From the NCBI GenBank assembly GCA_017623055.1, contig JAGAPX010000031.1, positions 1 through 64,000 on the forward strand: a DNA stretch of 64,000 nucleotides. The letters run 5' to 3'. The first letter of the stretch is position 1. Each line of letters begins with the position of its first letter. This document shows, piece after piece, positions 1,928-54,300 of the stretch. This stretch comes from Phascolarctobacterium sp. GTDB lineage: Bacteria; Bacillota; Negativicutes; Acidaminococcales; Acidaminococcaceae. The notes under the pieces were generated by a model. It did not search any database. It was not told the DNA's origin and saw only the letters and a program-made list of their open reading frames with translations. Position numbers and translations under genes: made by a program.

Positions 1928-1952
1928 GAGAATTTTAGGGAGTGGATGATTT

Positions 1953-3164
1953 ATGAAGAATATTCTTATTGTAACGTCAAAGTATTATCCTGTTAGGCAT
2001 ATTGCAGTCAATAGAATAATGGCGTTCTCCAAGTATTTTATTGAAGCTGGTTATGCTGTTACAGTAATAACTAAGGGTGACAAAGATGCTAAGGATATTA
2101 TTGATGGAGCCAATGTATATTATATAAAAGATAGAGGGATTCTTCATAGAGCAAATACACAAAAAAAAGATAATATTGTTTATCATTATATTAAATGTGC
2201 TTGGAATAAAGTATATATGAGTATGTTTATTGATGAGGAAAGGTCTTGGGTTGATAGCGTATTAGAAAATCTTGAATCTATAGTTGAATTAAAAAAATTT
2301 AATTATGTATTATCAAGTGCACCACCAATATCTGCTCATAGAATAGCAAGGGAAATTAAAAAAAGAGTGCCTAAAATTAAATGGATTATTGATATGCGTG
2401 ATGCTATGTGGTCTTCCAATTATCCTTTGAGGACAAGAGATAAACTGGTAAAGTTTGTGCGACTGATTAGCCGAGAGGGAGATATTTTACTTTCAGTATC
2501 TAAACCACAATTAGAAAAATATAAAGAGATAACAAACAATAAATTACAGTATTTGGAAGTGCGTAATGGCTATGATTTTGATGCAGATAACAAGGATTCT
2601 GGTAAAAGAAACCAAAAGTTTACTATAATTTTTGCGGGCAATTTTTATGCAAATTTAAATCCTAAAAACTTTTTTAAGGGATTAGAGTTGTTTATAAGTA
2701 ACTATAAAAATATTGAAATTAGTGTTGAGATTATTGGTAATAATGCTCCGATAAATATACCTTCTTCTATTGGTGAATACGTAATAACGCGGAATGCAAT
2801 GTCTTATTTAGATGTAATAAATTATTTGAAGACAAAAGCAGATTTGCTTTTGGTTATTATACCTAGAGCGAGGGAAAGAGGTATTTATAGTGGAAAACTG
2901 TTCGATTATATAGGAGTCGGAAAACCAATAATAGGTTTAGTACCAACTGATGATGTTGCTGCTGAGTTGATAAATTCTACTGGAATTGGATATGTCACAA
3001 CCAATGAGGATGTTGAAGGAATTTATGAGGCATTAAAAAAATCATATGATGACTGGTGTAATAACAAGGTGATGATTGCTGATAAAAATGTTATTAGAGA
3101 TTCTCACAGAAGTGTACAAGTTAAAAAATTGATTGATTTTATTGAAGTTTATGAGGAATGTTAG
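1953..3164 (+). CDS. Glycosyltransferase, GT4-like (GT-B fold)
   Basis: 403 residues with the GT-B layout. The N-terminal half begins NILIVTSKYYPVRHIAVNR and contains SSAPPISAHRIA and IDMRDAMW, where a donor-lobe GT4 enzyme would have its acceptor-binding loops. The second half begins TIIFAGNFY near residue 225 and contains SGKLFDYIGVGKPIIGL, the region that normally binds the nucleotide sugar. The usual GT4 E-x7-E motif is not clear. A good Shine-Dalgarno (GGGAGTGG) precedes the ATG. It lies directly before another glycosyltransferase with no gap. Acceptor and donor sugars cannot be read from sequence. Confidence 0.75.
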   Translation: MKNILIVTSKYYPVRHIAVNRIMAFSKYFIEAGYAVTVITKGDKDAKDIIDGANVYYIKDRGILHRANTQKKDNIVYHYIKCAWNKVYMSMFIDEERSWVDSVLENLESIVELKKFNYVLSSAPPISAHRIAREIKKRVPKIKWIIDMRDAMWSSNYPLRTRDKLVKFVRLISREGDILLSVSKPQLEKYKEITNNKLQYLEVRNGYDFDADNKDSGKRNQKFTIIFAGNFYANLNPKNFFKGLELFISNYKNIEISVEIIGNNAPINIPSSIGEYVITRNAMSYLDVINYLKTKADLLLVIIPRARERGIYSGKLFDYIGVGKPIIGLVPTDDVAAELINSTGIGYVTTNEDVEGIYEALKKSYDDWCNNKVMIADKNVIRDSHRSVQVKKLIDFIEVYEEC

Positions 3165-4271
3165 ATGAGAGTGCTTTTATTATCTGATGCCTATTCAATA
3201 CATACCATCAAGTGGGCGAAAAGTTTAAGTGAACGTAATATTGCAATATGTATTTTTTCTTTAAGTATTAACGAAAATGATTATCCATATGAAGATAATT
3301 GTAATATAAGTGTTTTCAGTTATGAAGATAACAACACTAAGAGCAGAGAAAGTAATTTTTCTAAACTTAGTTATTTAAAGTCATTATCATATTTGAAGAA
3401 AGTTGTTGAAGATTTTAAACCTGATATCGTCCATGCGCATTATGCATCAAGTTATGGTATGCTTGGAGCGTTATTAGATTTTCATCCCTACATTATTTCT
3501 GTGTGGGGAAGTGATGTGTTTGATTTTCCGAATATAACTTTCTTGCATAATTTAGCTTTGAAATATAATTTATCAAAGGCAGATAAGATACTGTCAACCA
3601 GTAATGTAATGGCGATAGAAACAAAAAAATATACCAATAAGGATGTAGTGGTAACTCCATTTGGAATTGATTTGGAAAAATTCAAGCCATTAGAAGTTGA
3701 TAGCTTGTTTTCTGAAGATGATATTGTGATTGGTACGATAAAAACACTGGAAGAAAAGTATGGCATAGAATATTTAATCCGTGCGTTTGCAATTGTCAAA
3801 CGAAGACATCGGGAGTTACCGTTAAAGCTATTAATAGTAGGTGATGGTAGCTTGCGAAATAAATTAGAAGAGTTGACCATAAATTTGGGAATTGCAGAAG
3901 ATGCTATATTTACTGGTAAAATTAAGCATGATTTAGTACCAAAGTATGCTAATATGTTGTCTGTGTCTGTGTCTGTGTCTAATAGTGAAAGTTTTGGAGT
4001 AGCAATAATAGAAGCAAGTGCTTGCGGTATACCAGTAGTGGTATCTAATGTGGGAGGATTGCCAGAGGTTGTCGAAGACACGGTAACTGGTTATGTAGTA
4101 CCTGTAAGAAATCCAGAAGAAACAGCTGATGCGATAGAAAAACTTATATTAGATGATGAATTGAAAGCTAGAATGGGAAAGGCTGGCAGAGAGCGTGTTA
4201 AACAACTTTATGATTGGAATAAAAATGTAGATCAAATGATAAGTATTTATAAAGAGATTGTGAGGAAATGA
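3165..4271 (+). CDS. Glycosyltransferase family 4
   Basis: 368 residues, typical GT4 length. Visible features are DIVHAHYASSYG and SVWGSDVFDFP in the N-lobe, TPFGIDLEKFKP at the hinge, IVGDGSLRNKLE, and the donor-site signature SESFGVAIIEASACGIPVV with both glutamates of the E-x7-E motif, followed by VGGLPEVVEDTVTGYVV. It should transfer a hexose or amino-sugar residue from a nucleotide donor onto a lipid-linked precursor at the cytoplasmic membrane. The start codon follows immediately on the previous stop, and its own stop overlaps the next start (ATGA). A short hexanucleotide repeat (TCTGTG, 3960-3980) encodes the unusual run VSVSVSNS just before the donor site. Confidence 0.88.
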   Translation: MRVLLLSDAYSIHTIKWAKSLSERNIAICIFSLSINENDYPYEDNCNISVFSYEDNNTKSRESNFSKLSYLKSLSYLKKVVEDFKPDIVHAHYASSYGMLGALLDFHPYIISVWGSDVFDFPNITFLHNLALKYNLSKADKILSTSNVMAIETKKYTNKDVVVTPFGIDLEKFKPLEVDSLFSEDDIVIGTIKTLEEKYGIEYLIRAFAIVKRRHRELPLKLLIVGDGSLRNKLEELTINLGIAEDAIFTGKIKHDLVPKYANMLSVSVSVSNSESFGVAIIEASACGIPVVVSNVGGLPEVVEDTVTGYVVPVRNPEETADAIEKLILDDELKARMGKAGRERVKQLYDWNKNVDQMISIYKEIVRK

Positions 4272-5353
4272 AAGTCACAACTGTAGTAGGAGCAAGACCG
4301 CAGTTTGTTAAGGCTGCTGTTGTATCTCGTGCAATTAAAGAACACAATAAAGTTAATGTTGAGCATCAAATTGAAGAATAAATTATACATACCAATCAGC
4401 ATTACGACGCAAATATGTCTGATATTTTCTTTGATGAAATGTGTATTCCTAAGCCACATTATAATTTATATGTTGGTGGTGGCACCCAAGGCGCCATGAC
4501 TGGACGCATGTTGGAGAAAATAGAGGCAATTTTGCTGGAAGAAAAGCCAGACTATGTTTTAATTTATGGTGACACTAATTCCACTTTAGCTGGAGCGTTG
4601 GCTGCAATAAAATTGCATATTCCTGTTGTACATGTAGAAGCAGGTTTACGCTCTTTTAATATGCGGATGCCTGAAGAAGTGAACCGTATTTTGTCTGACA
4701 GGGTTTCTAAATTATTGTTGTGTCCTACCAATACTGCTGTTAAGCATTTAGCAAATGAAAATATTACTGCTGGTGTTATCAATGTTGGCGATGTTATGTA
4801 TGATGCTGTAAAGTTTTATGGAGAAATAGCAGTGCCTTCAAAAGAGGTTAAAGAATTAGCACAAGGTGAGTATTATTTATCCACTGTGCATAGAGCTGAA
4901 AATACTGACGATATAAATCGCTTAAAAGGCATTATGAATGCATTGAATGATATAGCATTAAAAACAAAAGTAATTCTGCCGTTGCATCCTAGAACTAAAA
5001 AGGTTCTAGCTGCAAATGATATTAAAATAGACAATGTTATTGTAATTGATCCCGTTGGTTATTTTGATATTTTGTACTTGCTTAAAAATTCTATTGGTGC
5101 TCTTACTGACAGTGGTGGTATGCAAAAAGAAGCATATTTCTTAAATAAACCGTGTTTCACTCTTCGTGATGAAACAGAATGGACTGAATTAGTTGACTGT
5201 GGTGCAAATATTCTTGTAGGTGCTGATTACGAAAAGATAATGAGTGCAGTGAATGCAATGAATTTTGATAAAGAAGTTTTTGAGCAACAACTTTTCGGTA
5301 ATGGTGAAGCTGGTAAGAAGATTGTTGAAGTGTTGGTGAAGAATCAAGCTTAA
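4268..5353 (+). pseudogene. wecB: UDP-GlcNAc 2-epimerase (WecB/MnaA family), interrupted by an in-frame stop
   Basis: The frame starts at an ATG overlapping the previous stop and reads MKVTTVVGARPQFVKAA, the standard start of this family. It meets TAA at 4379-4381 after 37 codons and continues in the same frame as IIHTNQHYDANMSDIFFDEM, then the rest of a normal epimerase: DTNSTLAG, HVEAGLRS, RMPEEVNR, STVHRAENTD, LTDSGGMQKEAY, LRDETEWTELV. The enzyme interconverts UDP-GlcNAc and UDP-ManNAc. The glycine of the usual HTGQHYD motif is also replaced by asparagine. An internal start at 4415 would give a 312-residue product without the GARPQ nucleotide-binding loop, probably inactive. Alternatives are stop readthrough or an assembly error. 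Confidence 0.85.
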
Positions 5354-5381
5354 TGTTTTAGTTTAGATATGGAGTAAGATA

Positions 5382-6302
5382 ATGAATGACAATATTATAC
5401 GTGAATTATTAGAAAATCTTGGTAACTTTGAGAATTTAAATCTAAGGCTTACGTTTTTTCAGAAAAGAAAGAATGACTATTTGGCGTATAATCCAAATGT
5501 TGATAGGAATATATGTGGTCGATTAATCGGCTTGATTACAGATTACTTGAGAGAAAAAATTGACTTAAGGATAGTGAACTATAATCCAGTACGTCCATGC
5601 GCAGATGGCGAACTTGAAAGTTGCGAAGTTACATATGTAGGTAATTATAATGAAGTTATTGAAAGTGTCGAGAGAGCAGATTGTGTAAATACTAATATTG
5701 ATGCTAATAAACTGACATTTTATTGTATCGATATAATAAACAATACTACTGACTTTAGGTGTTCTGTCTTTAGGAGAGTAACTAAGTTTAAAAGGCTTTC
5801 AGCACAGGGGATTCTGGCAAGATTTAATGGTAATACTTTGAATACTATTGATGAGCAGTTATTAGGTATTGATGGGTGTATTGATTTGTTATGTATAAAC
5901 AATAGGCTTTTTATTTTTAATCATATCGCTTTGGAAAGAATATTTCGCATAAATGTTGAGTTTGAACAACGTGCACGTCGTGCGTTGGAATGTATTGCAA
6001 GGACTAATAAAATAATGAACTTTCAGCAATTTGAGACTGAGTGTGTTAGAAATACGCGCTATCATAAAGCGTTGAGCAGATTAGTGGAGAATGAAATAGA
6101 TCCTAATGTAGTTTTTAATAATTTTGATGAAGTGGAGTCTGTTATTAATACATTTAATCTTGATATTGAATGTAGTGGACTTGGTAATGAAAGACAAATT
6201 GTCTATTCAGATGCTTCTCAAATAATGGATATTATTAGAATTATTAATGACGCTTATTGTAGAAGTATAATTTGTTCTCGAAATTTAGTATATGATAGTT
6301 AA
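5382..6302 (+). CDS. kwaB: KwaB-like protein (DUF4868), Kiwa anti-phage system candidate
   Basis: 306 residues, close to the usual KwaB length. The C-terminal half has the pattern I associate with DUF4868: a strand-rich stretch with FRRVTKFKR near residue 130, then LARFNGNTLNTIDEQLL, GIDGCIDLLCINNRLFIFNHIALERIF, then a helical region (EQRARRALECIA). KwaB is the cytoplasmic DNA-binding effector of Kiwa and acts with the membrane protein KwaA. The next gene, 14 bases on, is a small four-helix membrane protein, which matches. In described Kiwa loci kwaA usually comes first; here the order is reversed. A Shine-Dalgarno (GGAGTAAG) precedes the ATG. Family assignment is from pattern memory, not a database search. 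Confidence 0.62.
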   Translation: MNDNIIRELLENLGNFENLNLRLTFFQKRKNDYLAYNPNVDRNICGRLIGLITDYLREKIDLRIVNYNPVRPCADGELESCEVTYVGNYNEVIESVERADCVNTNIDANKLTFYCIDIINNTTDFRCSVFRRVTKFKRLSAQGILARFNGNTLNTIDEQLLGIDGCIDLLCINNRLFIFNHIALERIFRINVEFEQRARRALECIARTNKIMNFQQFETECVRNTRYHKALSRLVENEIDPNVVFNNFDEVESVINTFNLDIECSGLGNERQIVYSDASQIMDIIRIINDAYCRSIICSRNLVYDS

Positions 6303-6316
6303 GTGAAGTAAAGATT

Positions 6317-6883
6317 ATGAAAGACATATTAGTAAGATCTTTAATGTTCATATCATCTTATTTCCCTCTATATATTTTTATGTTGGTAAAAATATACATG
6401 AACACAGAAACTATTTTTTCCACAGATTTAAATAATTGGTACAATTATAAATTGTGGGTGGTAGTTATTTTGTATTTTTTTGTCTTGGTTTCATTTCTTA
6501 GTTTAGTTTGCTTTTTAAAGAATAATTCTATTAATATGAAAGGTATAGACGGTATAGAAAGAGCCGATGATATAGTACTCAATTATATTTACACATATAT
6601 GCTGCCTATACTAAGTTTTGAATTGGAGAAAATTGATACATTAATTATTAATGGACTTCTATTTTTATTAGTTTGGTTTTTGTATATCAAACTTCAGTTG
6701 GTTTATCTTAATCCTTTGTGGGCAGCTTTTGGTTATATTCCATATCCTTATAAAGATGGTTATATTTTAACTAATATAGAGTATGAAGTACTTAAGCGAA
6801 ATCAGGGTGTGGAAATAGTGGGACATTATTTAACAAATGGTGTATTTGTTGCTAATAAAAGGGACAATAAATTTGAGTGCTGA
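6317..6883 (+). CDS. kwaA: KwaA-like four-helix membrane protein, Kiwa candidate
   Basis: 188 residues with four predicted membrane segments at about residues 9-27, 46-67, 86-101 and 108-132, followed by a cytoplasmic tail of about 55 residues containing LNPLWAAFGYIPYPY and GYILTNIEYEVL. The four-helix layout and the NP-x-GY segment after the last helix agree with KwaA, the membrane sensor of Kiwa that responds to phage injection. The partner candidate kwaB lies directly upstream. If not Kiwa, this is an uncharacterised small membrane protein paired with a DUF4868-like protein. The gene is very AT-rich. A small hairpin (CTGATAAA/TTTATCAG, 6880-6899) overlaps the stop codon and may end the transcript weakly. 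Confidence 0.6.
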   Translation: MKDILVRSLMFISSYFPLYIFMLVKIYMNTETIFSTDLNNWYNYKLWVVVILYFFVLVSFLSLVCFLKNNSINMKGIDGIERADDIVLNYIYTYMLPILSFELEKIDTLIINGLLFLLVWFLYIKLQLVYLNPLWAAFGYIPYPYKDGYILTNIEYEVLKRNQGVEIVGHYLTNGVFVANKRDNKFEC

Positions 6884-7000
6884 TAAAATAATTTATCAGT
6901 GCTTAGCGAGCATTGGTTAGAGGGAGAACATCATAAACGATAAGTACCGAAATTATTATGAAAAGATGTATGGTAATAGGTAAAAAGTTCCCCCTATATA

Positions 7001-7128
7001 ATAAGTGACATAAAAAAATCAAAGTGGCTCACAAAATACTAAAATTTTTTCAAAAAAGAAGTTTTTATGTGTTTTTAAAAATTTTTTAGGAAAAAGTGAG
7101 CCACTTGCCCTTAAACGAAGTCACTTAT
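7001..7128. repeat. Long foldback (two nested inverted repeats)
   Basis: Outer arms ATAAGTGAC (7001-7009) and GTCACTTAT (7120-7128) are exact reverse complements. Inner arms AAGTGGCTCAC (7022-7032) and GTGAGCCACTT (7096-7106) are also exact. The centre is an A/T-rich stretch that is itself roughly self-complementary (CTAAAATTTTTT against AAAAATTTTTTAG). The size and arrangement resemble a miniature inverted-repeat element or a large intrinsic terminator; no transposase lies nearby. Confidence 0.55.
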
Positions 7129-7300
7129 ATAGTGAGATTTTCTTTTTTGCTCTCCTTATTCCTCTTTTTTACTAGGTTTTCTTCTCCTTGTTCCTCTCGT
7201 TTTTTCTTTTGCCATAATCTAGCAAAGCGGAAGCTTTGCTTCATTGTTCTAAAGTTAGTACTAACTTATAGTTATAAATGTTTTATACGAAACATTTGCA

Positions 7301-7341
7301 AAAGTAAAAGCCTTACTCCAAAGTAATGTGGAGCAAGGCTT
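7301..7341 (-). terminator. Intrinsic terminator of the decayed HTH gene
   Basis: Arms at 7308-7320 and 7329-7341 pair over 13 bases with one mismatch. On the minus strand the hairpin is followed by TTTTACTTTT. It sits 8 bases after the stop of the minus-strand HTH pseudogene, which supports that gene having once been real. Confidence 0.6.
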
Positions 7342-7348
7342 GGTAATG

Positions 7349-7614
7349 CTAAGTATTTAGTTTTTCTTTGATGCGTTTAAGGGCATCTAGTTTCTGTCGT
7401 TTGGTAGTACTAAGGCTACAAAAAAGTTGTGCTGCTATTTGCTTGTTGCTTTTTCCTTGACCGTAATACATTTTCAAAATTTTGAATTGCTTTCTTGGTG
7501 GGGCGTTTAATTGCTAAGGTTTTTGACAAGGGCTTTTAGTTCAGTAGCAGAAAGCTTGGTAAAACGAGGTAAAGCATTGGATGTGGTACTGCTTTTTTCG
7601 TTTTGGAAGATTAA
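7349..7614 (-). pseudogene. Decayed small HTH (sigma-70 region 4-like) protein, frameshifted
   Basis: On the minus strand one frame reads ALPRFTKLSATELKALVKNLSN and stops. The adjacent frame continues as NAPPRKQFKILKMYYGQGKSN, then KQIAAQLFCSLSTTKRQKL and ends LKRIKEKLNT at a TAG (7349-7351). The second part looks like a helix-turn-helix of the sigma-70 region 4/LuxR kind as found in small phage regulators. The switch of frame at about 7505-7515 means the gene is broken. No start codon is evident, so the N-terminus is probably lost too. A good terminator follows it. Confidence 0.5.
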
Positions 7615-7788
7615 TTACCTTCTTTCGTTTTAGAATGTAAATCATTCATTTCTGGGGAGATACTATAAAATCGTTTCCAGAAATTTATGAGTTAATAATA
7701 TTTTATTTCCTCGGTGTTTATAAATCAAAATTTATTTCGCGAAGTTGTGAAATCTACGTGAACTTATAAAAGTTTTTAGGAGTATTGT

Positions 7789-9147
7789 ATGTCTTTTTCA
7801 TTAGCAAACATTTTTTTGATAGCCATATGTCTTTTTGCTGTTACATCTTTTTTGTCCATTGCAGCAACTAATGTTTTCTTAGGGATAAGCACATTGCTGT
7901 TTTTAATAAATTTATATAGAGATAAAAGGGTTAATTTAAATGAAGATAAAGTGCCTTATTTGAAAGCTATAGGTGTATTTGCTAGCACGTTACTTATTTC
8001 TGCATTATGTAGTGGAGATATCGTACAAGGCTTAAAAACTTGGGCAGATTTTTTCCTATGGAGATTTATGCCTTTCTTGATTTTGCTATTTGTATTTGAC
8101 AATAAGGAAGATGCTAAGAAAGTTTATTGTGCTATTCTAGGTGCCTTCTTGGTAGATGCACTGTATGTAATTTATCAAGGTGTCTTTGTTTATAAGTTAA
8201 ACATAAATTGGGCAAGACCTTATGGCTTTACAGGTCATCCTATGACATTTGCAGGGTTCTTATGCATTATTGTACCAGTTCTTTTGGTGTTGGTATTTGA
8301 ATCTAAAGTGCTTGGTAAGTATGGTAAGCTTGCGTTGCCTGCTTTTATTGTTGGAGTAGGTGCGTTAGTGCTTAACTCTACACGTGGTGCTTGGCTTGCA
8401 GTTGGAATTGTTGTTAGTTTAATTTGCTTAAACTATATGTTCCGTAGCAAAAGGATTTTTATTGGTTGTGTAGCGTTGATGCTTGTTGGTGGATTATTAC
8501 TTGTAAATAACCAAGCATTTATGAAACGTGTAAATACATTTAGTAGCGTAAAGAGCGCTACACAAGACCCACGTTTTAAAATTTGGGATGTCTCTGTTGT
8601 ATTGTTTAAGGAGCATCCAGTTCTAGGTGTTGGCTTAGGGCAGTTCAAAGACGAATATCGTGAGAGGCATTCTAAAGTATATCCAGTTAATGAAAAACAG
8701 AAAAAGTTAGCTACTGAGTACAAAAAGTATTTGGATAATAGGAAGAAGAAAAAGCTAACACCTGCTCAAAAGAAAATGACAAAGGCAAAACGTCTTGAGT
8801 TACAAAAGGCATACGTTGCTCAAAGAAAGTATGAGGTTATTGGAAGACTAACTCATGCTCACAATAACTTTCTACAAATGCTTGGTGAGAATGGTTTAGT
8901 GGGATTTGCTGGATATGTTTTTGCTTTTGGTTATATTTTATGGCGTAATATAAAGAATTATTTTGTCAACAAGAATCCTTACGCTTTAATGATTGCTGGC
9001 TCTACAGGTGCTTTAGTTTTACAAGGCTTAACGGAGTATAACTTTGGTAATGGTGCAGTTATGAAGTTGTATTGGTTAGTCTTGGGGTGCTTGGTTGTAT
9101 TGGCAAGGTACTACAACAAAGAAAATGATGAAAAAGAAACTAAATAA
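7789..9147 (+). CDS. O-antigen ligase / polymerase family membrane protein (Wzy_C)
   Basis: 452 residues with about ten membrane segments. The large external loop contains NSTRGAW (arginine near 199) and, further on, LTHAHNNFLQMLGENGLVG (residues 354-372), the signature of the Wzy_C / O-antigen ligase family. These proteins join finished polysaccharide to lipid A-core, or polymerise repeat units, on the outer face of the inner membrane. An unusual lysine-rich stretch (about residues 301-347) interrupts the loop just before the THAHN motif. The gene has GGAG eight bases before its ATG. It ends at a strong terminator (9152-9190). Whether it is ligase or polymerase cannot be decided from sequence alone. 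Confidence 0.85.
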   Translation: MSFSLANIFLIAICLFAVTSFLSIAATNVFLGISTLLFLINLYRDKRVNLNEDKVPYLKAIGVFASTLLISALCSGDIVQGLKTWADFFLWRFMPFLILLFVFDNKEDAKKVYCAILGAFLVDALYVIYQGVFVYKLNINWARPYGFTGHPMTFAGFLCIIVPVLLVLVFESKVLGKYGKLALPAFIVGVGALVLNSTRGAWLAVGIVVSLICLNYMFRSKRIFIGCVALMLVGGLLLVNNQAFMKRVNTFSSVKSATQDPRFKIWDVSVVLFKEHPVLGVGLGQFKDEYRERHSKVYPVNEKQKKLATEYKKYLDNRKKKKLTPAQKKMTKAKRLELQKAYVAQRKYEVIGRLTHAHNNFLQMLGENGLVGFAGYVFAFGYILWRNIKNYFVNKNPYALMIAGSTGALVLQGLTEYNFGNGAVMKLYWLVLGCLVVLARYYNKENDEKETK

Positions 9148-9151
9148 AGAC

Positions 9152-9190
9152 TTAAAGGCTACAGTTCATTTGGACTGTAGCCTTTCGTAT
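9152..9190. terminator. Bidirectional terminator, copy 1 of a 39-base direct repeat
   Basis: The stem AAAGGCTACAGT/ACTGTAGCCTTT is flanked by A and T residues, so it can act in both directions. It ends the ligase gene. The same 39 bases, with one difference, recur in direct orientation at 11869-11907. Confidence 0.85.
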
Positions 9191-9260
9191 AGGTTGAGTT
9201 GTATAGAATCAGATTAGATATAATCCTATAAATGACTAATTGTAGTAAGTTGGATTAAAT

Positions 9261-10277
9261 TTATTTTTCTAAATCAATCATCAATTCGTCAAATTTAGAG
9301 TATAAGTAGTCAGCTGGTAGTTCGTTGTTTAATTTCATGTCCATCATTTTAATCATATCTTCATTGCTAATGCTTAAAATAAGCTTTCCATTTTCTCTAA
9401 GGGTTCCTCTAATTGCTTTTTCAGCATTTGGTGATGCACTTTTACAAGAGATTATTATAGCGACGCTTCTCAACGCTTTCTTATAAAGATATTTGTCAGT
9501 AGTATAGATTTCTCTTTGAGTAATTTGTTCATTATAATTCTTAAATTCAAAAATTATGTATTTACTATTGAAAAATTGTATTAACGTTGTCCAAAATCCA
9601 CTGATGTTACCGTCTTTTATTTTGCAAATTAAATCAAATCTATACAGATTATCGTTGGATTTTTCTTGTGTGTGCCATAATGTTAGTTCGTTGTCAAATA
9701 GATAATTTAATATTTCTGTGCAAAGATTTTCATAGGCATAATTTCCGTAGCTTGTTGACCAATTTATGATACTAGTTTTCAATGATGCTTCTTTTGAAGG
9801 AAGGTGTTCCGAAATAGAATTTTGAGGAAATATAATTTTGTTATCTGGTTCTTTAGGAATAATATCTACAACAGAAAAATCTAATAAAGATAATAATTGG
9901 CTTTTTAAATCAGGATTATTATGCACTAAGAACAGAAGGTTTTGAATATCTATGACTAACAGATTGCGATTTTTGCATAATTTAGATTTAAGGTCATCAT
10001 TGATTATTGAGTTCACAACTAAAATATAAGTAAAATTTTTATTACCATGTTCAAATAGTTGATTTGTCACGCGAAGTAGTAATTGTGGATTGGATTTAAG
10101 AGTTCTAAAATACTTAGTTTCTACTAAGTAATTTTTATTGTTCTTCTGAACTTCAAAATCATAACGATAATTTTGAAGACGTTGGTTGATTTCTATATTA
10201 AAGCCATAAAATACAAAAATTTCTTTAATGACTTTTTCATAATTTATAACTGTGTCTAAAAATGGATTTTGACTCAT
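9261..10277 (-). CDS. Protein with two PD-(D/E)XK nuclease-like signatures
   Basis: The start at 10277 (MSQNPFL) is preferred to the ATG at 10292, because AGGAGA lies correctly before it and overlaps the earlier one. The protein has 338 residues. Two separate nuclease-like patterns are visible: RYDFEV with D40, then LVETKY with E53 and K55; and RFDLICKI with D215, then IIFEFKNY with E244 and K246, the second resembling Mrr-type restriction endonuclease domains. Between them is a variable linker of about 70 residues. It lies downstream of an AbiE toxin-antitoxin pair on the same strand, so a role in defence is likely. No methylase partner is present. The exact family is not recognised. Confidence 0.6.
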   Translation of the reverse strand: MSQNPFLDTVINYEKVIKEIFVFYGFNIEINQRLQNYRYDFEVQKNNKNYLVETKYFRTLKSNPQLLLRVTNQLFEHGNKNFTYILVVNSIINDDLKSKLCKNRNLLVIDIQNLLFLVHNNPDLKSQLLSLLDFSVVDIIPKEPDNKIIFPQNSISEHLPSKEASLKTSIINWSTSYGNYAYENLCTEILNYLFDNELTLWHTQEKSNDNLYRFDLICKIKDGNISGFWTTLIQFFNSKYIIFEFKNYNEQITQREIYTTDKYLYKKALRSVAIIISCKSASPNAEKAIRGTLRENGKLILSISNEDMIKMMDMKLNNELPADYLYSKFDELMIDLEK

Positions 10278-10329
10278 AAAGCATCTCCTCATAAAAGGTT
10301 ATTGAATGATTACCTTAGTTTATTATATT

Positions 10330-11193
10330 TTACTCACATCTCAACCCTTGAGTAATAGCCTTAAAAAAATTGGCACTCCAGATGTCAATGCTTTTAGTAT
10401 CTTTGATGAACGGTATTACGTCTTTCTTTGCTTGGTCGTAATCAATGGCGTCAAATTTTTCTATGAGCATATTCTTCACGTCGTCAATAGTCAAATTTTT
10501 TTCTGGAGCTATTGCCTCGGTTTGAACAAGTCTTTCTTTAAGATGAGGAAGATTGAATTGGGTGCCTTTGCTTAAGTAAAAGACATAGTCATATAAATCT
10601 CTACCTTTGATTCTGTTTTTCCAAGAACGACAAATTACGGCATGAAGCTTTCCTGCGAAAAGAGAAGGTGCATCGTAAAGATTAACCTCGTAAGGAGCAG
10701 GAAGAAGTTTAAATTGTGGGTCGAAGTTTGCATACTTAGGTGGATTTATATCGACTTCGAATTTTATTTTAATAAGCTCGTTACTGGTAATACCAAGAAG
10801 AGGACTGTTGGGATAAAAGAGTAGCATATGCTCGCGAGTGTTACCTTTTAGAAATGCTGATTTAATATCTGAGTCTGCAGTCTTTTCTTTTTCAGTTATC
10901 TCTACATTGAGACCGAAGGATTTAACTTCCTTCTCTAAGATGGGAAAGTATTTTGAGAGGTTAAAGTTTTGATTTTCTTTCAATAGGGAAAAGTCTAAGT
11001 CTTCGGAGAAACGGTCTAAGCCATAGAAAATTCTTAAAGCAGTACCGCCATAAAAAGCTGCTTCTTTAAAGAAGCCTGCTCTGCTGAGGCCACATAAGAT
11101 AATTTCTTGAATAACTTCTTTAAGAGCGTTCTTTTTATTATAAATTGTTGTTATATCATGTTGTTTTAACATTTCTTGAATTATGGTGCTCAT
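10330..11193 (-). CDS. abiEii: AbiEii/AbiGii-family nucleotidyltransferase toxin
   Basis: The start is placed at the ATG at 11193 (MSTIIQEM) with GAGGTGA correctly spaced; a GTG at 11202 is also in frame. The 287 residues contain FYGGTALRIFYGLDRFSEDLDFSL (residues 47-70, shown here as family motifs GGTALR and SEDLDF), the nucleotidyltransferase signature of AbiEii toxins, and later LYDAPSLFAGKLHAV with KGRDLYDY, which complete the family pattern. AbiEii toxins transfer nucleotides to RNA targets and stop growth during phage infection (type IV toxin-antitoxin). The AbiEi-like antitoxin gene lies immediately upstream in the same transcript, with 5 bases between stop and start. Confidence 0.9.
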   Translation of the reverse strand: MSTIIQEMLKQHDITTIYNKKNALKEVIQEIILCGLSRAGFFKEAAFYGGTALRIFYGLDRFSEDLDFSLLKENQNFNLSKYFPILEKEVKSFGLNVEITEKEKTADSDIKSAFLKGNTREHMLLFYPNSPLLGITSNELIKIKFEVDINPPKYANFDPQFKLLPAPYEVNLYDAPSLFAGKLHAVICRSWKNRIKGRDLYDYVFYLSKGTQFNLPHLKERLVQTEAIAPEKNLTIDDVKNMLIEKFDAIDYDQAKKDVIPFIKDTKSIDIWSANFFKAITQGLRCE

Positions 11194-11198
11194 AGATT

Positions 11199-11774
11199 TC
11201 ACCTCAACAATTTTTTTAGGAGCTTTAAGTTTGTTGCTTTATAGAGGTCAGCTAAGCTACATAAGGCTTCTTTGTCTAGTTGCTGGAATTCTGTTCCATC
11301 AATGCGCAAATCAGTAAATAAAAGCTCAATTAATTCCTTTTTATTTCTCACTGTACTTTCTATATAAAGCTTGTCGCACAAAGCTTTTTCAGGAGTAGCA
11401 ATGGCGAAGGAGTATTGGCCTTCTGAAATTAAGCGAATGCCGTAAGGATAGGCTGAGGATGGTACGTCTCTATATGTAAACGTACCAAAGTGATTGTTGT
11501 AAATCTTTTCTTTTTTCTTCTCGAAGGTTGCGGACGTAAATGTATAGACAGCTTCTGGAATTAAACCATAGTAGGAAAGTGCAAAGTCAAAGGATAAATA
11601 TGATGGACCATAAATAATATTTGCTAAGAGATAACCGGGAATGGTTTTGTCAGTTTCGTATAAGCCTTTGGTAATTGGAATGACACTTCCTGTTCTAACC
11701 ATACGGGAGATTTTATTATTAGGAGCACGATAATTGTGTAGTTCTTTTAGTAATGCATTATAGGTTTTTATCAT
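11199..11774 (-). CDS. abiEi: AbiEi-family antitoxin (type IV toxin-antitoxin)
   Basis: 191 residues. It begins with a short winged-helix-like region (ISRMVRTGSVIPITKGLYE, residues 22-40), then YLLANIIYGPSYLSFDFALSY, and ISEGQYSFAIATPEKALCDKLY, the usual AbiEi core. AbiEi antitoxins repress their own promoter and neutralise the toxin without binding it strongly. A Shine-Dalgarno (GAGGTGAG) precedes the ATG. It is the first gene of a minus-strand unit that continues with the toxin and the double-nuclease protein. The 156 bases upstream hold the terminator repeat at 11869-11907 and a TATAAT-like hexamer (11794-11799). Confidence 0.88.
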   Translation of the reverse strand: MIKTYNALLKELHNYRAPNNKISRMVRTGSVIPITKGLYETDKTIPGYLLANIIYGPSYLSFDFALSYYGLIPEAVYTFTSATFEKKKEKIYNNHFGTFTYRDVPSSAYPYGIRLISEGQYSFAIATPEKALCDKLYIESTVRNKKELIELLFTDLRIDGTEFQQLDKEALCSLADLYKATNLKLLKKLLR

Positions 11775-11868
11775 ATTCTCACCTCATACTCACATTATAT
11801 TACATTATCTGGTGAAAATAAAGCGATTTATCTAAGGGAAATAAGTGTTTGAACATAATCGTATAATG

Positions 11869-11907
11869 TTAAAGGCTACAGTTCATTTGAACTGTAGCCT
11901 TTCGTAT
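11869..11907. terminator. Bidirectional terminator, copy 2 of the 39-base direct repeat
   Basis: Identical to 9152-9190 except for one base in the loop. It ends the minus-strand hydrogenase transcript, 24 bases after the stop codon of that gene. Together the two copies exactly bracket the defence cassette. Confidence 0.85.
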
Positions 11908-11930
11908 ATCTATGATATCTAGGACAATTT

Positions 11931-13658
11931 TTACTTATAATTCTTCTCTTTCACGTGGTCAGAATGGAGCAATTCTTCTGCCAAGTTGCTGAGCGGTTTT
12001 TCTAAGAAGTTAGCGTAAACTGCTTGTACATCAGGGTTGTTGTGGGATTGACGCAAGGTGCGTTTTTCGTCAAGGTCGTAAAGTTTCGCACCACGACTGC
12101 ACGCCAGTTCTTGTCCGTCATGGATAGGTTGTCCGCCGCCACCCACGCAACCGCCAGGACATGCCATAACTTCCACGAAGTCATACTCGACTTTGCCTGC
12201 CTTGATGTCATCCATCAATCGACCTGCATTGCCCAATCCACTTACGGTACAGGTGCGTACAACGGTGTCGCCAAGTTTGAAGTTAGCTTCGCGACGAGCT
12301 GCATTGCCACGTACATCTACGAAAGCATCAAGCGGAGCTTCTTTGCCTTCAACAACTGCATAAGCAGTACGAAGTGCTGCTTCCATTACGCCACCAGTTA
12401 CACCGAAGATTACTGCTGCACCGGTGCTGCTACCTAACGGGCTGTCAAATTCGGCAGGTTCCAGGGAAGCAATGTTGATATGTTCAGCTTTAATCAAGCG
12501 TGCCAGCTCGCGAGTGGTGAGGACGATGTCAACGTCAGGTACGCCACTGCTACGCATGGAGAACAGTGCTGCTTCGCGCTTTTTAGATACGCAGGGCATA
12601 ATGGAGATGGAGCAGATGTCCTTAGTATCAATGCCTTTTTGTTGGGCGAAGTAAGTTTTAGTCAAGGCACCAAAGATTTGTTGAGGACTCTTGGTGCTGG
12701 AAAGGTTGGGGAGGAACGCAGGATATTTTTTGCTTACGTAGCTTACCCAGCCCGGACAGCAGGAGGTGAACATAGGCCAAGGATGTTTGTCACGTTCAGC
12801 CAAGCGTTCTAAAAGTTCGCTGCCTTCTTCCATAATGGTAACGTCTGCTGCGAAGTTGGTATCGAAAACGTAATCGAAGCCAATCTTTTTGAGGGCAGCA
12901 ACCATTTTTCCTTCGGTAAACTGTTCAGGAGCAAGACCAAGTGCTTCGCCCCAAGCAGTACGAACTGCAGGAGCAACTTGCACAACGGTAACTTTCTCCG
13001 GATTTGCCAGCACTTCGAAAATTTTAGGAACATCGTCACGTTCTTTAAGTGCGCCAACGGGGCAATGGGTAATGCATTGACCGCATAAGCTACAATCGGA
13101 TTGAGCGATGTTAGGGAATTTTTGGGCAACATCTACGGTAGTACGTCCACCGGTGTTAACCAAGTCCCAAATGTTCAAGCCTTGCACTTTGTCACAGATT
13201 TGGATGCAACGCATACACTTGATGCATTTTTTGGAATCTCTAATTAAGGGGAACTCTTTGTCCCAAGGAATATCTACAACGTCTTTTTCGTAGGGGAGTT
13301 CAAAAATTCCAAGGTCATTTGCCAAGGTTTGCAGAGCGCAGTTACCGCTTCTTACGCAGGTTGCGCACAGGCAATCGTGTTGGGAAAGAATCAGCTCCAC
13401 ATTGGTACGGCGGATAGCACGTACTTTGGGAGAGTTAGTGTAAACAACGAGGCCTTCTTGTACGGGAGTGCTGCAGGCAGTTACCAGTCTAACTTTGCCT
13501 TGCACTTCTACTACGCACACTTTGCAAGCGCTAATTTCGTTAATGCCTTCCAAATAGCAAAGGCGAGGGATGCGGATACCAACGGAGTCCGCTGCTTGCA
13601 TGATGGTTGCACCTTTGGGGGCAGTTACTTTTTGTCCGTCAATTGTTAAGTTTACCAT
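11931..13658 (-). CDS. hydA: [FeFe] hydrogenase catalytic subunit (NuoG-like N-terminus)
   Basis: 575 residues. In order: a [2Fe-2S] domain (Cys34, 45, 48, 62), a His-Cys3 [4Fe-4S] motif (His94, Cys98, 101, 107), two ferredoxin-type [4Fe-4S] clusters (Cys145-155 and 189-199), then the H-cluster domain with TSCCPGW (residues 298-304), MPCVSKKREA (354-363) and ACPGGCVGGGG near 507. All three H-cluster motifs are intact. The enzyme reduces protons or oxidises hydrogen in the cytoplasm, taking electrons from ferredoxin and/or NAD(P)H through a flavoprotein partner. It is the second gene of a two-gene minus-strand operon; its ATG overlaps the stop of the flavoprotein by 7 bases. The maturases HydEFG are not in the window. 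Confidence 0.95.
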   Translation of the reverse strand: MVNLTIDGQKVTAPKGATIMQAADSVGIRIPRLCYLEGINEISACKVCVVEVQGKVRLVTACSTPVQEGLVVYTNSPKVRAIRRTNVELILSQHDCLCATCVRSGNCALQTLANDLGIFELPYEKDVVDIPWDKEFPLIRDSKKCIKCMRCIQICDKVQGLNIWDLVNTGGRTTVDVAQKFPNIAQSDCSLCGQCITHCPVGALKERDDVPKIFEVLANPEKVTVVQVAPAVRTAWGEALGLAPEQFTEGKMVAALKKIGFDYVFDTNFAADVTIMEEGSELLERLAERDKHPWPMFTSCCPGWVSYVSKKYPAFLPNLSSTKSPQQIFGALTKTYFAQQKGIDTKDICSISIMPCVSKKREAALFSMRSSGVPDVDIVLTTRELARLIKAEHINIASLEPAEFDSPLGSSTGAAVIFGVTGGVMEAALRTAYAVVEGKEAPLDAFVDVRGNAARREANFKLGDTVVRTCTVSGLGNAGRLMDDIKAGKVEYDFVEVMACPGGCVGGGGQPIHDGQELACSRGAKLYDLDEKRTLRQSHNNPDVQAVYANFLEKPLSNLAEELLHSDHVKEKNYK

Positions 13659-42808: not shown

Positions 42809-45493
42809 ATGGGTAGTAAACGAATCTATGAAATAGCTAAAGAGATTGGCAAAAGCAGCAATGAAATCATTGATGTTTTGAAGAAAAACAATATCGAAAA
42901 AACCAACTTTAGTGGCGTAGACGCTAAGGAAATGGAAATTATTACTAAAGCATTTGCGAAAAAACAGGAGGCGCCTGTGAAGAAAGAACAACCGAAGCAA
43001 GCTGCTCCTGTTCAAAAGCAGGAGCAACCCAAACAAGCTGCACAACCCGTAGCAAACAGAAACAATCAACCCCAACAAAATGGCGGTAACAAAAATAACC
43101 AACCGCAACAAAATCGTAACAACGATAACCGTCAAGGACAAAACCGTCCCCAAGGTCAAGGTGGTTTCCGTAACGACAACCGTCAAGGTGGTCAAGGCGG
43201 TTTCCGCAACAACGACAATCGCCAAGGCGGTCAAAACCGTCCTCAAGGTCAAGGTGGTTTCCGCAATAACGACAATCGTCAAGGTGGTCAAACCCGTCCC
43301 CAAGGTCAAGGTGGTTTCCGCAACAATGATAATCGCCAAGGTGGTCAAGGTGGCTTCCGCAATAACGACAATCGTCAAGGTGGTCAAAATCGTCCCCAAC
43401 AAAATCGTCAAGGCGGTATCTTCATTGGTCCTAAAGGTCAACAACCTGGCGGTCAACGTCCTAACGAAAATCGTGGCGGTGATGCACGTCCGCAACAAAG
43501 CCGTCCCCAACAACCTCGTCGTGAAAGCCGTCCGGAACCTGCATTCGATATGCTCAGCGTAAAACCCAGCAAGGCTACTAACCGCGACCGCGATAAAAAC
43601 CGCAATAAGGATAAACAACAAGTGAAGGGCTCCTACGCTACTAAGGAAAGCCGTCCTAACCGTAGCGCAGGTCATCAAATGAACATGAAAAAACGTCCTA
43701 CTAATAATCCGCAACCTAAAAACGCACAACCGGCAGTAGAAATAGTTAGACCTACCTTCGTAGAAATCGGCGAAACTATTAACGTAAAAGAATTTGCAAC
43801 CTTGATTAAACGCGAGGTTAGCGAGGTTATTAAAGCTCTCTTCATGCTTGGTATGATGGTTACCATTAACCAAGACATTGACTTCGAAACCGCACAACTT
43901 ATCGGTGAAGAATTTGGCGTAGAAATCGGTCAAAAAGCTCCTGATGAAGATCCCACTGAAGTTCCCGAAGTTGAAGATGATCCGGAAAAACGCGTACTGC
44001 GTCCGCCTGTAATTACCGTTATGGGTCACGTTGACCACGGTAAAACCTCTTTGCTGGACGCTATCCGTAAAACCAACGTTACTGCACGCGAAGCTGGCGG
44101 TATTACCCAACACATCGGTGCGTACAAAATTAACTACCAAGGCAAACAAATCGTATTCCTTGACACCCCCGGTCACGAAGCGTTCACCGCAATGCGTGCT
44201 CGTGGTGCGCAAGTAACTGACGTTGCTATCCTCGTTGTTGCAGCAGATGACGGCGTAATGCCCCAAACTATCGAAGCAATTAACCACGCTAAAGCAGCGA
44301 AGGTACCCATCATTGTTGCTATTAACAAAATGGACCGCGAAGGTGCAAACCCGGACCACGTTAAACAACAACTTGCTGAACACGAATTGATTCCTGAAGA
44401 TTGGGGCGGCGAAACCATTATGGTTCCCGTTTCCGCACATAAAAAGACCGGTATCAGTGATTTGCTGGAAATGATTCTTTTGGTAGCCGAAATGCAAGAA
44501 TTGAAAGCTAACCCGAACCTTCCTGCTCGTGGTACCATCATCGAAGCACAATTGGATAAAGGCCGTGGCCCTGTTGCTACCGTATTGGTACAACGTGGTA
44601 CCCTTCACATTGGCGACACCATCGTAGCTGGCACTGCTTATGGTAAAGTACGTGCAATGGTTAACGACCGTGGCGAAAAAGTTAAAAAGGCTGGCCCGTC
44701 CACTCCTGTCGAAGTGCTTGGTCTTAACGACGTTCCCGGCGCTGGTGACGTTCTTGACTCCACTGATGAAAGAACTGCACGTAGCGTTGCTGAAAAACGT
44801 ATCGCTAAACGTAAAGAAGACGAAATCAAACTCAATTCCAAAGTTTCCTTGGACGACTTGTTCCAACGTATCCAAGAAGGCGAGCTGAAAGAATTGAACA
44901 TCGTTGTTAAAGCTGACGTTCAAGGTACCATCGAAGCGCTTAAAGCTTCCCTTGAAAAAATTAAGAATGATGAAGTTAAAGTTGTTGTTGTTCACGCAGG
45001 CGTTGGTGCAATCGCTGAATCCGACATTATGCTTGCTTCCGCAGCAAACGCTCTCATCATCGGCTTTAACGTTCGTCCTGACGCTAACGCTCGTAAAGCA
45101 GCAGAAGCTGAAAAAGTTGACGTACGCACCTACCGCGTAATCTATGACGCTTTGAACGACGTAGAAGCAGCTATCAAAGGTATGCTTGCTCCGAAATTCG
45201 AAGAAGTTATCCAAGGCCGCGTAGAAGTTCGTCAATTGATTACCATTTCCAAGCTCCTCATTGCAGGTTGCTATGTAACCGAAGGTAAAGTTACCAACCA
45301 CTCCAAAGTTCGCGTAATTCGTGACGGTATCGTAGTTCACGAAGGCGAAATCGAATCCTTGCGCCGCTTCAAAGACGACGTTAAAGAAGTTAACCAAGGC
45401 TACGAATGTGGTATTACCTTGGAAAAATTCCGTGACCTTAAAGAAGGCGACCAGTTCGAAATCTTTAACATGGAAGAAGTTAAAATCGACTAA
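42809..45493 (+). CDS. infB: Translation initiation factor IF-2
   Basis: 894 residues. An N-terminal IF2_N module ([20 protein letters not shown]) is followed by a low-complexity stretch of about 200 residues rich in Arg, Asn, Gln and Gly with repeats of [10 protein letters not shown] type, a second IF2_N ([16 protein letters not shown]), and the GTPase: [14 protein letters not shown] (G1), DTPGHEAF (G3), NKMD (G4), SAHKK (G5), then the domains that bind fMet-tRNA. It places initiator tRNA in the ribosome. TTAGGAGG lies upstream. The low-complexity part is encoded by tandem DNA repeats (about 43120-43420). Confidence 0.98.
43120..43425 (+). repeat. Tandem coding repeats in infB
   Basis: Repeated units encode variants of [10 protein letters not shown] joined by NRPQGQGGF. 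Near-identical DNA blocks such as GGTCAAGGTGGTTTCCG recur several times. The repeat number could change by recombination or slippage without breaking the frame. Confidence 0.8.
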
Positions 45494-51202: not shown

Positions 51203-51236
51203 AAAGGACTGGTGTAATGCCAGTCCTTTTTTTGTG
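51203..51236 (+). terminator. Intrinsic terminator after the binding-protein gene
   Basis: AAAGGACTGG (51203-51212) and CCAGTCCTTT (51220-51229) form a ten-pair stem followed by TTTTTTG. Confidence 0.94.
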
Positions 51237-51414: not shown

Positions 51415-51571
51415 TATAGTTCTTTCGTTTTATTTTTTTATAAATACACTATAGTTCTTTCGTTTTATTTTTTTTTATAAATACACTATAGTTCTTTCGT
51501 TTTATTTTTTTTTTTATAAATACACTATAGTTCTTTCGTTTTATTTTTTTATAAATATACTATACTTCTTT
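51415..51571. repeat. Four tandem repeats with stepwise poly-T length, plus a partial fifth
   Basis: Units begin TATAGTTCTTTCGTTTTA, then a T-run, then ATAAATACAC. Copies lie at 51415-51449, 51450-51486, 51487-51525 and 51526-51560 (35, 37, 39 and 35 bases) with T-runs of 7, 9, 11 and 7. A partial copy (TATACTTCTTT) ends the array at 51571, 29 bases before the -35 of the promoter for the next gene. Confidence 0.9.
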
Positions 51572-51658: not shown

Positions 51659-52750
51659 ATGCCAAAAGATTCAACTTTAGAAATACAAAATATGGTAAGA
51701 TTGCTAGGAGAAAAATTAGGATTTACGGCAGTAATGGAAGAGAGATTACATAGCAATAATATATATGCTCCTATTTATGATGTTGTATGGTATTTAGAAT
51801 TAGATAAATTTTTTAATTTGGAGTCTTTAAGACCATTATTTTCCCATAGACTGGATTTATTTAAACACTTACAGAAATTACCGATTGCTGGATTTGAAAT
51901 TGAGGGTTCGACAACATCAAGTAAAAATCAGATAAGTAATTTTGCAAATTTATATAGTGGAAATTTCTTTTACAATTTTGTAATAGTAAATAATGATGCA
52001 GCTACTAGTGAAAATGACACTTATCGAAGAGGTGTTAAGATTAATAATTATTTCAAACTAATGGCTGGATTTAGAAATGTTTTCTTTTTAGACAAGAAGC
52101 ATTTAGATATTGCTATTGATAAATGTAAATTTGGAACAAATGAATTGAGTTTTGCTGACTGCAAAATTGGTGATAGAAAAGGGTTTGGTGGTGAGAATAG
52201 GTCTATTAATGTGTTTAATGAATTACTAGAAAATTTATCGAATACTGGTTTGTTGGTGAAACAAAATTGGAGTCCGGAATTGAGCAAAATTTTATATAGA
52301 ATTAATAGCAAATGTTCTAGTGATGATTATACTGATTTTGTTTTACATAAAAAATACTATAATCAACCGTTAGACGAATTTCCTATAACATCTAAAAATG
52401 CTACAGCTAGTTACTACATTCCGAAGCTTGATGTAGTATTGGGATTTAATCTTCCTGAAAGTTTTAAAGATTTTCTTTTTCGTTTAAGCATTGCATTGGG
52501 TGAGCAGTATGTAGATTATCCTATTTTATTTGGACTGAGAGAAAAAATGATAACTGATTTGTTTGTGCCATTGGTAAGCATTGAGATAGAAACTAGCATT
52601 AATAAACATTTAAATGGCGGTATTTTCAATATGTCTAAAAATAGTTATTGTGGAATTTTAGTAACAGAAGATGATGCACACTCACATCTTCAATTTTTTA
52701 TGAAAGAACTAGGTATCAATAATATTACCTCATATTGTATGGAAAGGTGA
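51659..52750 (+). CDS. Uncharacterised protein with a nuclease-like (PD-(D/E)XK variant) N-terminal region
   Basis: 363 residues. I do not recognise a named family. The N-terminal 110 residues read like a restriction-endonuclease fold: a helix with E28, then IYDVVWYLEL with D41, and LPIAGFEIEGSTTSSKNQI with E80 and E82, followed by NFANLYSGNF and the hydrophobic strand YNFVIVNN. The D...E-x-E spacing fits PD-(D/E)XK variants where the lysine is replaced, as in BamHI. The C-terminal 230 residues have no recognised motif. GGGGG precedes the ATG. The gene is strongly AT-rich, unlike its housekeeping neighbours, and is followed after six bases by a nitrilase-fold gene. No membrane segments or signal peptide. 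Confidence 0.6.
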   Translation: MPKDSTLEIQNMVRLLGEKLGFTAVMEERLHSNNIYAPIYDVVWYLELDKFFNLESLRPLFSHRLDLFKHLQKLPIAGFEIEGSTTSSKNQISNFANLYSGNFFYNFVIVNNDAATSENDTYRRGVKINNYFKLMAGFRNVFFLDKKHLDIAIDKCKFGTNELSFADCKIGDRKGFGGENRSINVFNELLENLSNTGLLVKQNWSPELSKILYRINSKCSSDDYTDFVLHKKYYNQPLDEFPITSKNATASYYIPKLDVVLGFNLPESFKDFLFRLSIALGEQYVDYPILFGLREKMITDLFVPLVSIEIETSINKHLNGGIFNMSKNSYCGILVTEDDAHSHLQFFMKELGINNITSYCMER

Positions 52751-52756
52751 TTTGTT

Positions 52757-54121
52757 ATGAGGATAGGATTGTTTTTACAGGATTTGGCGAATGTAAATTG
52801 GGAGAAAAGATATAATGAAGTAATCAAGCTTTGTAAAAAGGCAGAACTTGATTTGTTGGTGTTTCCTGAAAATACTTATTGCCCTAAAATGGACGAATTA
52901 GAAGAATGTTATTATTTCGACGATAATGATGAAGGATATGGAATTATTAAAGATTTTGTGTGTGATTTAAGTAAAAATGCGGGATGTGCAGTTTTGTTTT
53001 GTCATTTTTCAAAAGAAGATTACATATATTCTTTTTATGCTAATGAATTTTCTGAAGATGGAGAAACATATAATAATGATTATTGCAAACATACTGCTAC
53101 TTGGAATTCACCGTTAGATGGAAGAATAGAGATTGATGATCCGTTTTTTGGGTATGATTTTAACATAATTAATTTGAAGAATTTTAAAATAGGGCAAACT
53201 ATTTGTTATGATTCAACATTTCCGTTATTTAGTAGGATGTATGGATTAAACAATGTGGATATCTTAATAAATTCTACAGGAGGTCATGTAGATTATAAAA
53301 AATGGTCTTATTATCAAAAAGTTAGAGCTATTGAGAATAATTGTTTTAACCTTTGCATAATGGCAAATATGGATAATTCAAGGAAAAACGAGTCGTATGT
53401 TTTTGCGTATAATAAGTATGGTCGCAAACTGCCACTCGCGATAGTGGATAGTAACGGAAGTATTAAGAAAGTTACTGATAATTCTATTAAAGATGCATTA
53501 TATGTTTTTGATATTGAAAAAAACGAATTTAATTGGTTTTGGGAGAATAAATATGAGGATGATGAGTTTCTGAACCAAAAGGCGACAAAGAATAAAAATG
53601 TACATGCATACATCAGCGTTAAAAGAATAACAGAAATGATATCAAGCTCAAATAAATTAGCACCAAATTTGTATTGTGTTCCTAAGTGGAATTATAATTT
53701 GATTTTATGTTTAGTACATGGTAAAGATATTTTAATACCTGAAAAAGTTGCTGAATTAGAATACAATGATGATTTAAAGAAAATAGATAATAAAAGGTAT
53801 CTAATTGTTAACATGTGGGATGAGCCTGTAAAAAGCGATTTTTACAATGGTGTTTTATCTAATATATTAAAGGTGAGGACTGTGGAAAATTATAGTGCAC
53901 TGTTCTTTTATGACGGAGCGAAAGAGCTGTGTCTTCAAACTGGAAAAAATAAAAATGTACAGGTTGTTGCTAAAGAGTTTGATGGTAGCTATAGTCTGGA
54001 TTTTGATAGAATGACTGGACCTGAAGCTATTTGGAGAACTAGCGTACAGACACAAATGAGAGCAGAGTGGAGAGAGGGATATGAAGATATATTGAAATAC
54101 ATTTTGAAGAATAAAAAGTGA
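52757..54121 (+). CDS. Nitrilase-fold (carbon-nitrogen hydrolase) protein with a C-terminal extension
   Basis: 454 residues. The N-terminal 270 match the carbon-nitrogen hydrolase superfamily with a complete triad: VFPENTY (E38), DYCKHTATW (K111), and IGQTICYDSTFP (C150), plus the conserved RAIENNCFNLC helix (R190). Such enzymes cleave amide or nitrile bonds. The last 180 residues, starting near KNVHAYISVKRI, are not part of the usual fold and contain ILCLVHGKDILIPEKVAELEY and YSALFFYDGAKELCLQ; I do not recognise them. The gene follows the nuclease-like gene by six bases and is equally AT-rich, so the two form one unit. Nitrilase domains occur in defence proteins, for example fused to reverse transcriptase in DRT type 1. 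Substrate unknown. Confidence 0.75.
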   Translation: MRIGLFLQDLANVNWEKRYNEVIKLCKKAELDLLVFPENTYCPKMDELEECYYFDDNDEGYGIIKDFVCDLSKNAGCAVLFCHFSKEDYIYSFYANEFSEDGETYNNDYCKHTATWNSPLDGRIEIDDPFFGYDFNIINLKNFKIGQTICYDSTFPLFSRMYGLNNVDILINSTGGHVDYKKWSYYQKVRAIENNCFNLCIMANMDNSRKNESYVFAYNKYGRKLPLAIVDSNGSIKKVTDNSIKDALYVFDIEKNEFNWFWENKYEDDEFLNQKATKNKNVHAYISVKRITEMISSSNKLAPNLYCVPKWNYNLILCLVHGKDILIPEKVAELEYNDDLKKIDNKRYLIVNMWDEPVKSDFYNGVLSNILKVRTVENYSALFFYDGAKELCLQTGKNKNVQVVAKEFDGSYSLDFDRMTGPEAIWRTSVQTQMRAEWREGYEDILKYILKNKK

Positions 54122-54248
54122 GGAAGTTTCTAATTGGAGAATGGCTTTGAATATCTATCCTAAAATACTAACAATACCGCTTGCTGTTAAAAATATGATA
54201 AGTAATACCCATTGATTTTCACAAATAAAATTACTTATGCAAAAAATA

Positions 54249-54276
54249 AAGGCGTAGCCCTCGTGGACTACGCCTT
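54249..54276. terminator. Bidirectional terminator between convergent genes
   Basis: AAGGCGTAG (54249-54257) pairs with CTACGCCTT (54268-54276). On the minus strand it is followed by TATTTTTT, so it mainly serves the aminotransferase gene. Confidence 0.88.
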
Positions 54277-54300
54277 CTGTAATTCTAAACGATATGTATA

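Follow-up and report, generated by a model that had tools for sequence, protein, structure and literature searches.

We describe a two-gene unit, formed by genes A and B, in a 64,000-nucleotide stretch of DNA from Phascolarctobacterium sp. (hereafter the window), in which a PD-(D/E)XK-like nuclease candidate lies directly ahead of a nitrilase-fold amidohydrolase. Comparison with relatives in other genomes supports A-B as a conserved, transferable and horizontally acquired accessory unit, and the predicted coupling of nuclease to nitrilase is well supported by fusions and by the exchange of partners. As to function, we lean, if only just, towards an acquired immune module in which the PD-(D/E)XK-like protein A engages foreign DNA, gating B as an effector of the nitrilase superfamily.

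The gene pair and its chromosomal site

Gene A (positions 51659 to 52750, plus strand) encodes 363 aa and was delimited by its ORF, its homologues and a structure model as a nuclease candidate with two similar halves; gene B (52757 to 54121, plus strand) encodes 454 aa, assigned by Pfam, AlphaFold and Foldseek to a nitrilase-fold amidohydrolase with a C-terminal tail. The preliminary description had reported two tightly spaced, AT-rich genes, and both are present as claimed, with 6 bases between them and a GC content of 28.7% (A) and 30.1% (B) as against 45-46% for TctC, aspC and leuS. A Shine-Dalgarno-like GGGGG precedes A, and a second Shine-Dalgarno-like stretch, ahead of B, overlaps the end of A.

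Terminator-like hairpins bound the inserted module, on the left that of the upstream TctC gene (51203 to 51229, plus strand) and on the right that at the aspC end (54248 to 54277, minus strand); sequence homology with congeners begins at ~54292-54297, near the right boundary. The corresponding TctC and aspC genes of the congener G002 enclose a type II CRISPR-Cas locus instead, comprising Cas9, Cas1, Cas2 and an array whose repeats are spaced 66 bases. Cas1 and Cas2 were named by PADLOC, while the protein that we take to be Cas9 was recognised from its sequence (MAYAIGLDVGIASVGYAVV...). In this genus, the interval between TctC and aspC looks like a hotspot for defence genes, as judged from the site in G002 (L113, L115), the contigs of the other two congeners stopping at the TctC/aspC point.

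Upstream of A lies a 35-bp AT-rich tandem repeat of 4.3 copies (51415 to 51571, plus strand), the units of which carry T-tracts of varying length; the array is possibly a regulatory or slippage-prone region. Nine other loci of the family had no comparable tandem array in the 400 bases upstream. We rejected a reading of the array as a CRISPR remnant because its 35-bp units are near-identical and have no spacers.

Elsewhere in the window, an AbiEi/AbiEii toxin-antitoxin pair (9261-11774, minus strand; PADLOC E 1.7e-71 and 1.5e-110) is accompanied by a 343-aa gene to which no family was assigned and which looks Mrr-like by eye, and it adjoins an AT-rich region of surface-polysaccharide genes (window 1-12000). 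Tandem repeats of 33-57 bases at 43055-43387 appear, by eye, to encode a Gln/Asn/Arg/Gly-rich product.

Predicted folds and conserved sites of the two proteins

By its predicted fold and its Glu-Lys-Cys triad, B is a member of the nitrilase (carbon-nitrogen hydrolase) superfamily. The Pfam domain CN_hydrolase spans residues 20-203 (E 1.7e-14), the AlphaFold model is confident (pLDDT 90, pTM 0.91), and Foldseek returned nitrilase superfamily structures (E ~1e-12). The triad first noticed in the sequence, E38 (52868-52870), K111 (53087-53089) and C150 (53204-53206; plus strand, 52868 to 53206 in all), holds across the family, K111 and C150 being invariant in 19 homologues and E38 present in every homologue not truncated there. 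By profile, the nearest solved relatives are NitFhit, beta-ureidopropionase and Nit2. Together with an ICYD motif, whose C-Y-D had been overlooked, these relatives suggest an amidase-type reaction for B, pointing to the amidase/carbamoylase branches rather than the true nitrilases. B shares its triad, the CYD motif and its fold with Nit/beta-ureidopropionase-type amidohydrolases, but is set apart from them by a conserved extra tail of ~170 aa, by its coupling to a nuclease and by its defence surroundings.

That tail, originally noted as an unknown extension, proved to be a separately conserved and confidently modelled domain (residues 284-454; 53606 to 54118, plus strand), with the motifs LKVR..EN, C.Q.GKN and D..R..GPEAIW conserved in 16 homologues. 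It has no family match in Pfam. A weak lead points to a STAS protein (E 0.086), the strand-helix order of which fits the B model; tail matches in G218 and G165 were attributed to chance. Gene A and the tail domain would be two protein families that are nameless in the searched libraries.

For A, the D41...E80-x-E82 pattern picked out in the preliminary description is invariant across all six intact homologues, which are 42-55% identical and sit directly upstream of B homologues. The three residues (D41, 51779-51781; E80, 51896-51898; E82, 51902-51904) make up a candidate active site in the N-terminal half (51779 to 51904, plus strand), and K89 (51923-51925) is likewise invariant in the six-homologue alignment. 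A second invariant set in the same six homologues, absent from the preliminary description, comprises D258 (52430-52432), E309-x-E311 (52583-52585 and 52589-52591) and K316 (52604-52606), and marks a site in the C-terminal half (52430 to 52606, plus strand). In the AlphaFold model (pTM 0.69, mean pLDDT 61), strands and helices form two successive units, and the invariant residues lie on or beside core strands; D41 adjoins strand 42-47, and E80 and E82 close strand 73-82. The protein appears to contain two halves that each resemble a nuclease, a feature overlooked at first; the halves align with each other at matching motifs, though weakly and no more than suggestively (hhalign E 0.0074, probability 5%; phmmer E 0.0054).

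Library searches with A gave no match in Pfam, NCBIfam or PADLOC, profiles of A gave no nuclease match in Pfam or the PDB, and Foldseek gave no match at E<=0.001. The best-probability named Foldseek matches, all weak and of PD-(D/E)XK type, came from the viral library (endonuclease I, an Mrr-like protein and an endonuclease-like protein of a phage) and from the PDB (EcoT38I); MutS entries have better E-values in the PDB, but with probabilities near 0.1. An AmiA-like Pfam match (E 0.00089) occurs in two A members and is absent from the A of the window and from most homologues, and weak matches to A in G359 and G189 were judged to be non-homologues. A shares its D...E-x-E motifs and strand order with PD-(D/E)XK type II/IV restriction endonucleases (EcoT38I, Mrr-like, endonuclease I), from which it is set apart by its two halves in tandem, by its nitrilase linkage and by the lack of a significant match in fold or sequence. 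Its motif conforms to the PD-(D/E)XK pattern in the form E-x-E, not E-x-K. The idea of a nuclease-like protein is thus supported by invariant motifs and by a predicted topology that is PD-(D/E)XK-like, rather than devoid of a nuclease fold, while the fold has no significant match to a known structure. We regard A as probably a PD-(D/E)XK-like protein and are slightly inclined to consider it an active nuclease.

Distribution and exchange of nuclease partners

Single-sequence searches with A and B found nothing in genome, viral, plasmid and phage collections, and neither gene was carried by any phage or plasmid record searched. A search with the tail alone recovered two proteins of the same phylum in which a nuclease domain is fused ahead of the nitrilase and tail, and a family profile was built from these two fusion proteins and B. 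The resulting family of nitrilase plus tail comprises 25 loci after near-duplicates were merged: the window, L023 (in G351), L024 (in G257), L027-L029, L031-L041, L043-L049 and L122. L027 and L030 have identical contig sequence, one of the two MAGs probably being misbinned, and were counted once, as were the near copies L036 and L042; a Cloacimonadota MAG with the same contig sequence as a Lutispora MAG was left out of the count. The hosts are Bacillota, Bacteroidota and the archaeon Methanobrevibacter cuticularis, and the family is rare, with the tail in 3/399 and A in 1/399 genomes of the phylum.

Partners were counted on 22 readable loci, L037, L040 and L046 being cut or decayed upstream and therefore excluded. 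A nuclease-like partner is present in 17 of the 22. A lies directly upstream in seven (the window, L027, L028, L029, L038, L047 and L048), three of them damaged: L029 and L048 carry frameshifts, in A and in B respectively, and A has decayed in L047. A DUF559-type nuclease with the motif RCDFVC...IIEYDERQHF is fused ahead of the nitrilase in eight (L023, L024, L031, L032, L034, L039, L043 and L122); L034 is cut inside the fused nuclease and the L043 fusion is frameshifted, and the nuclease of L031 passes the DUF559 Pfam cut-off (25.5 vs 20.6 bits). At two further loci (L035 and L036), the DUF559-type nuclease is a separate upstream gene of ~188 aa. The N-terminal head domain stands alone in L041 and L049, and there is no nuclease nearby in L033, L044 and L045. 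In L035, a 138-aa gene of no known family (L035:9572-9988) separates the stand-alone nuclease gene from that of the nitrilase. A resemblance of the N-terminal head of the fusions to a ScoMcrA head found no support in Pfam, and the head is left unassigned.

What resembles DUF559/Vsr-like endonucleases is the nuclease partner in the fused relatives, to which A is not detectably related; the reading that A is itself a diverged version of that nuclease was rejected, there being no detectable similarity (hhalign E 0.61). In a maximum-likelihood tree of the nitrilase-tail region (19 rows, some on long branches, including the window), A-type and DUF559-type loci intermix, with a minimum of three partner changes, two of them forced by well-supported branches. 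The archaeal A-type locus L038, for example, groups with the G351 fusion (support 97/96). Since the partner types are intermixed on the nitrilase tree, we read the nucleases as exchanged equivalents, and the two look interchangeable and functionally equivalent.

These patterns bear on two alternatives. One is that B is an ordinary metabolic amidase next to an unrelated gene by chance, as might be imagined from the mostly metabolic character of the nitrilase superfamily and from three members that are solitary among housekeeping genes. Seven A-B loci across two domains of life, ten loci with the second nuclease, the partner exchange and the rarity of the family all speak against it, and we disfavour it as very improbable. 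At the family loci, no homologues were found in conserved metabolic operons, an arrangement that the preliminary description had counted against a defence role. The other alternative is a toxin-antitoxin-like or stress module that is not phage-specific, with the nitrilase depleting a metabolite as the toxin and the nuclease-like protein regulating it. Tight spacing with A first, the patchy, mobile distribution and the 35-bp array upstream of A would fit such a module, but fusions of nuclease to nitrilase oppose a separable toxin and antitoxin, A and B are bigger than typical pairs, and the surrounding genes belong more to defence than to plasmid maintenance, all of which leaves it improbable.

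Genomic surroundings and proposed function

PADLOC named defence genes beside several relatives. Immediately ahead of L039, from Oscillibacter, are BREX PglZ and BrxL; a type II methyltransferase, a restriction enzyme and Vsr follow L040; AbiD is near L036; a UvrD helicase of the GajB/RT-associated type is divergently oriented at L049; and PDC-S11 and PDC-M13B are near L046, with weaker kinase or helicase matches near L034, L041 and L048. Integrases or serine recombinases, named from sequence, are beside L023, L037 and L122, and several family loci are flanked by ordinary genes. An association with defence genes and sites was seen among neighbours that were picked by eye for scanning, with no matched control. 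WYL regulators are found in the vicinity of L023, L027 and L029, and an HSDR_N_2 gene adjoins both L023 (at L023:5296-6510) and L029 (at L029:4472-5677). Both kinds of gene are found at fusion and at A-type loci, indicating that the two partner types share these accessories, and the HSDR_N_2 gene is a possible third component of the module.

A further alternative is direct restriction, in which the nuclease would be the effector, cutting foreign or modified DNA, and B would either act on that DNA, or on a base or nucleotide carrying a modification (such as 7-deazaguanine with a nitrile or amide group), or serve solely as an assembly scaffold. In its favour, B is kept with two different nuclease types, the G351 fusion ends in DUF6884 (with a weak PADLOC overlap with DpdC, E 1.8e-05) and has Nmad3 nearby, and L039 has DUF6884 ~5 kb off. 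Yet DUF6884 is missing from most members, and B, which retains the full catalytic triad, is thereby not a mere scaffold. Nor is there a constant methyltransferase or other self-protection gene: the ORF tables of the family loci have no methyltransferase that is constant beside the module, that of L040 belonging to a separate type II system, and the lack of a dedicated methyltransferase further distinguishes A-B from PD-(D/E)XK restriction endonucleases. We consider direct restriction unlikely.

The closest described parallel is DRT1/RT-nitrilase (UG1, class 3 defence reverse transcriptases; UG5), which shares with A-B a likely nitrilase-fold effector and a nucleic-acid enzyme and is, like A-B, accessory and defence-associated. 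DRT1 has a reverse transcriptase, whereas in A-B the partner is nuclease-like and B brings its own tail domain. No RT domain was found in A or B with Pfam, NCBIfam or PADLOC, and against the PADLOC DRT models B had no match at E<=1 and its homologues had no match. According to a 2026 paper on DRT1 (PMC13275509), nitrilases are uncommon in anti-phage defence; the DRT1 nitrilase, the substrate of which that paper left open, is gated by non-templated DNA synthesis, requires oligomeric assembly and causes abortive infection. The preliminary description knew of no described system with this pair, and this agrees with the open-licence full texts searched, which give defence nitrilases only as fusions to reverse transcriptases; no PADLOC, Pfam or NCBIfam model names a nuclease-nitrilase pair.

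The recurrence of the same enzyme in distant bacteria and an archaeon with two unrelated nucleases, often among defence genes, makes the family probably anti-virus. For A-B we propose a DNA-gated nitrilase, just as non-templated DNA synthesis gates the nitrilase of DRT1 (PMC13275509). A would recognise foreign DNA and probably cleave or bind it, and the activity of B would be gated by its nuclease partner and by its own tail domain. Upon infection, the nuclease part would engage phage DNA, with the nitrilase being released or assembled; the nitrilase would then hydrolyse an amide-bearing cell metabolite, and growth would stop before phage release. The phage-defence or signalling pair first suggested accordingly keeps its footing in a conserved unit, a fusion-backed coupling and many relatives among defence genes, while the defence role itself we infer, as we do the nuclease activity of A, the gating and direction of control, and the substrate. 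A wider reading, more tentative than that for A-B, is that the family is a new immune system of Bacillota, Bacteroidota and archaea in which interchangeable DNA nuclease sensors switch on a nitrilase effector via a new regulatory tail domain. A second and smaller nitrilase system that lacks an RT, and in which the nuclease occurs both fused and as its own gene, would offer a compact test bed for the substrates of nitrilase effectors and for switching by DNA recognition.
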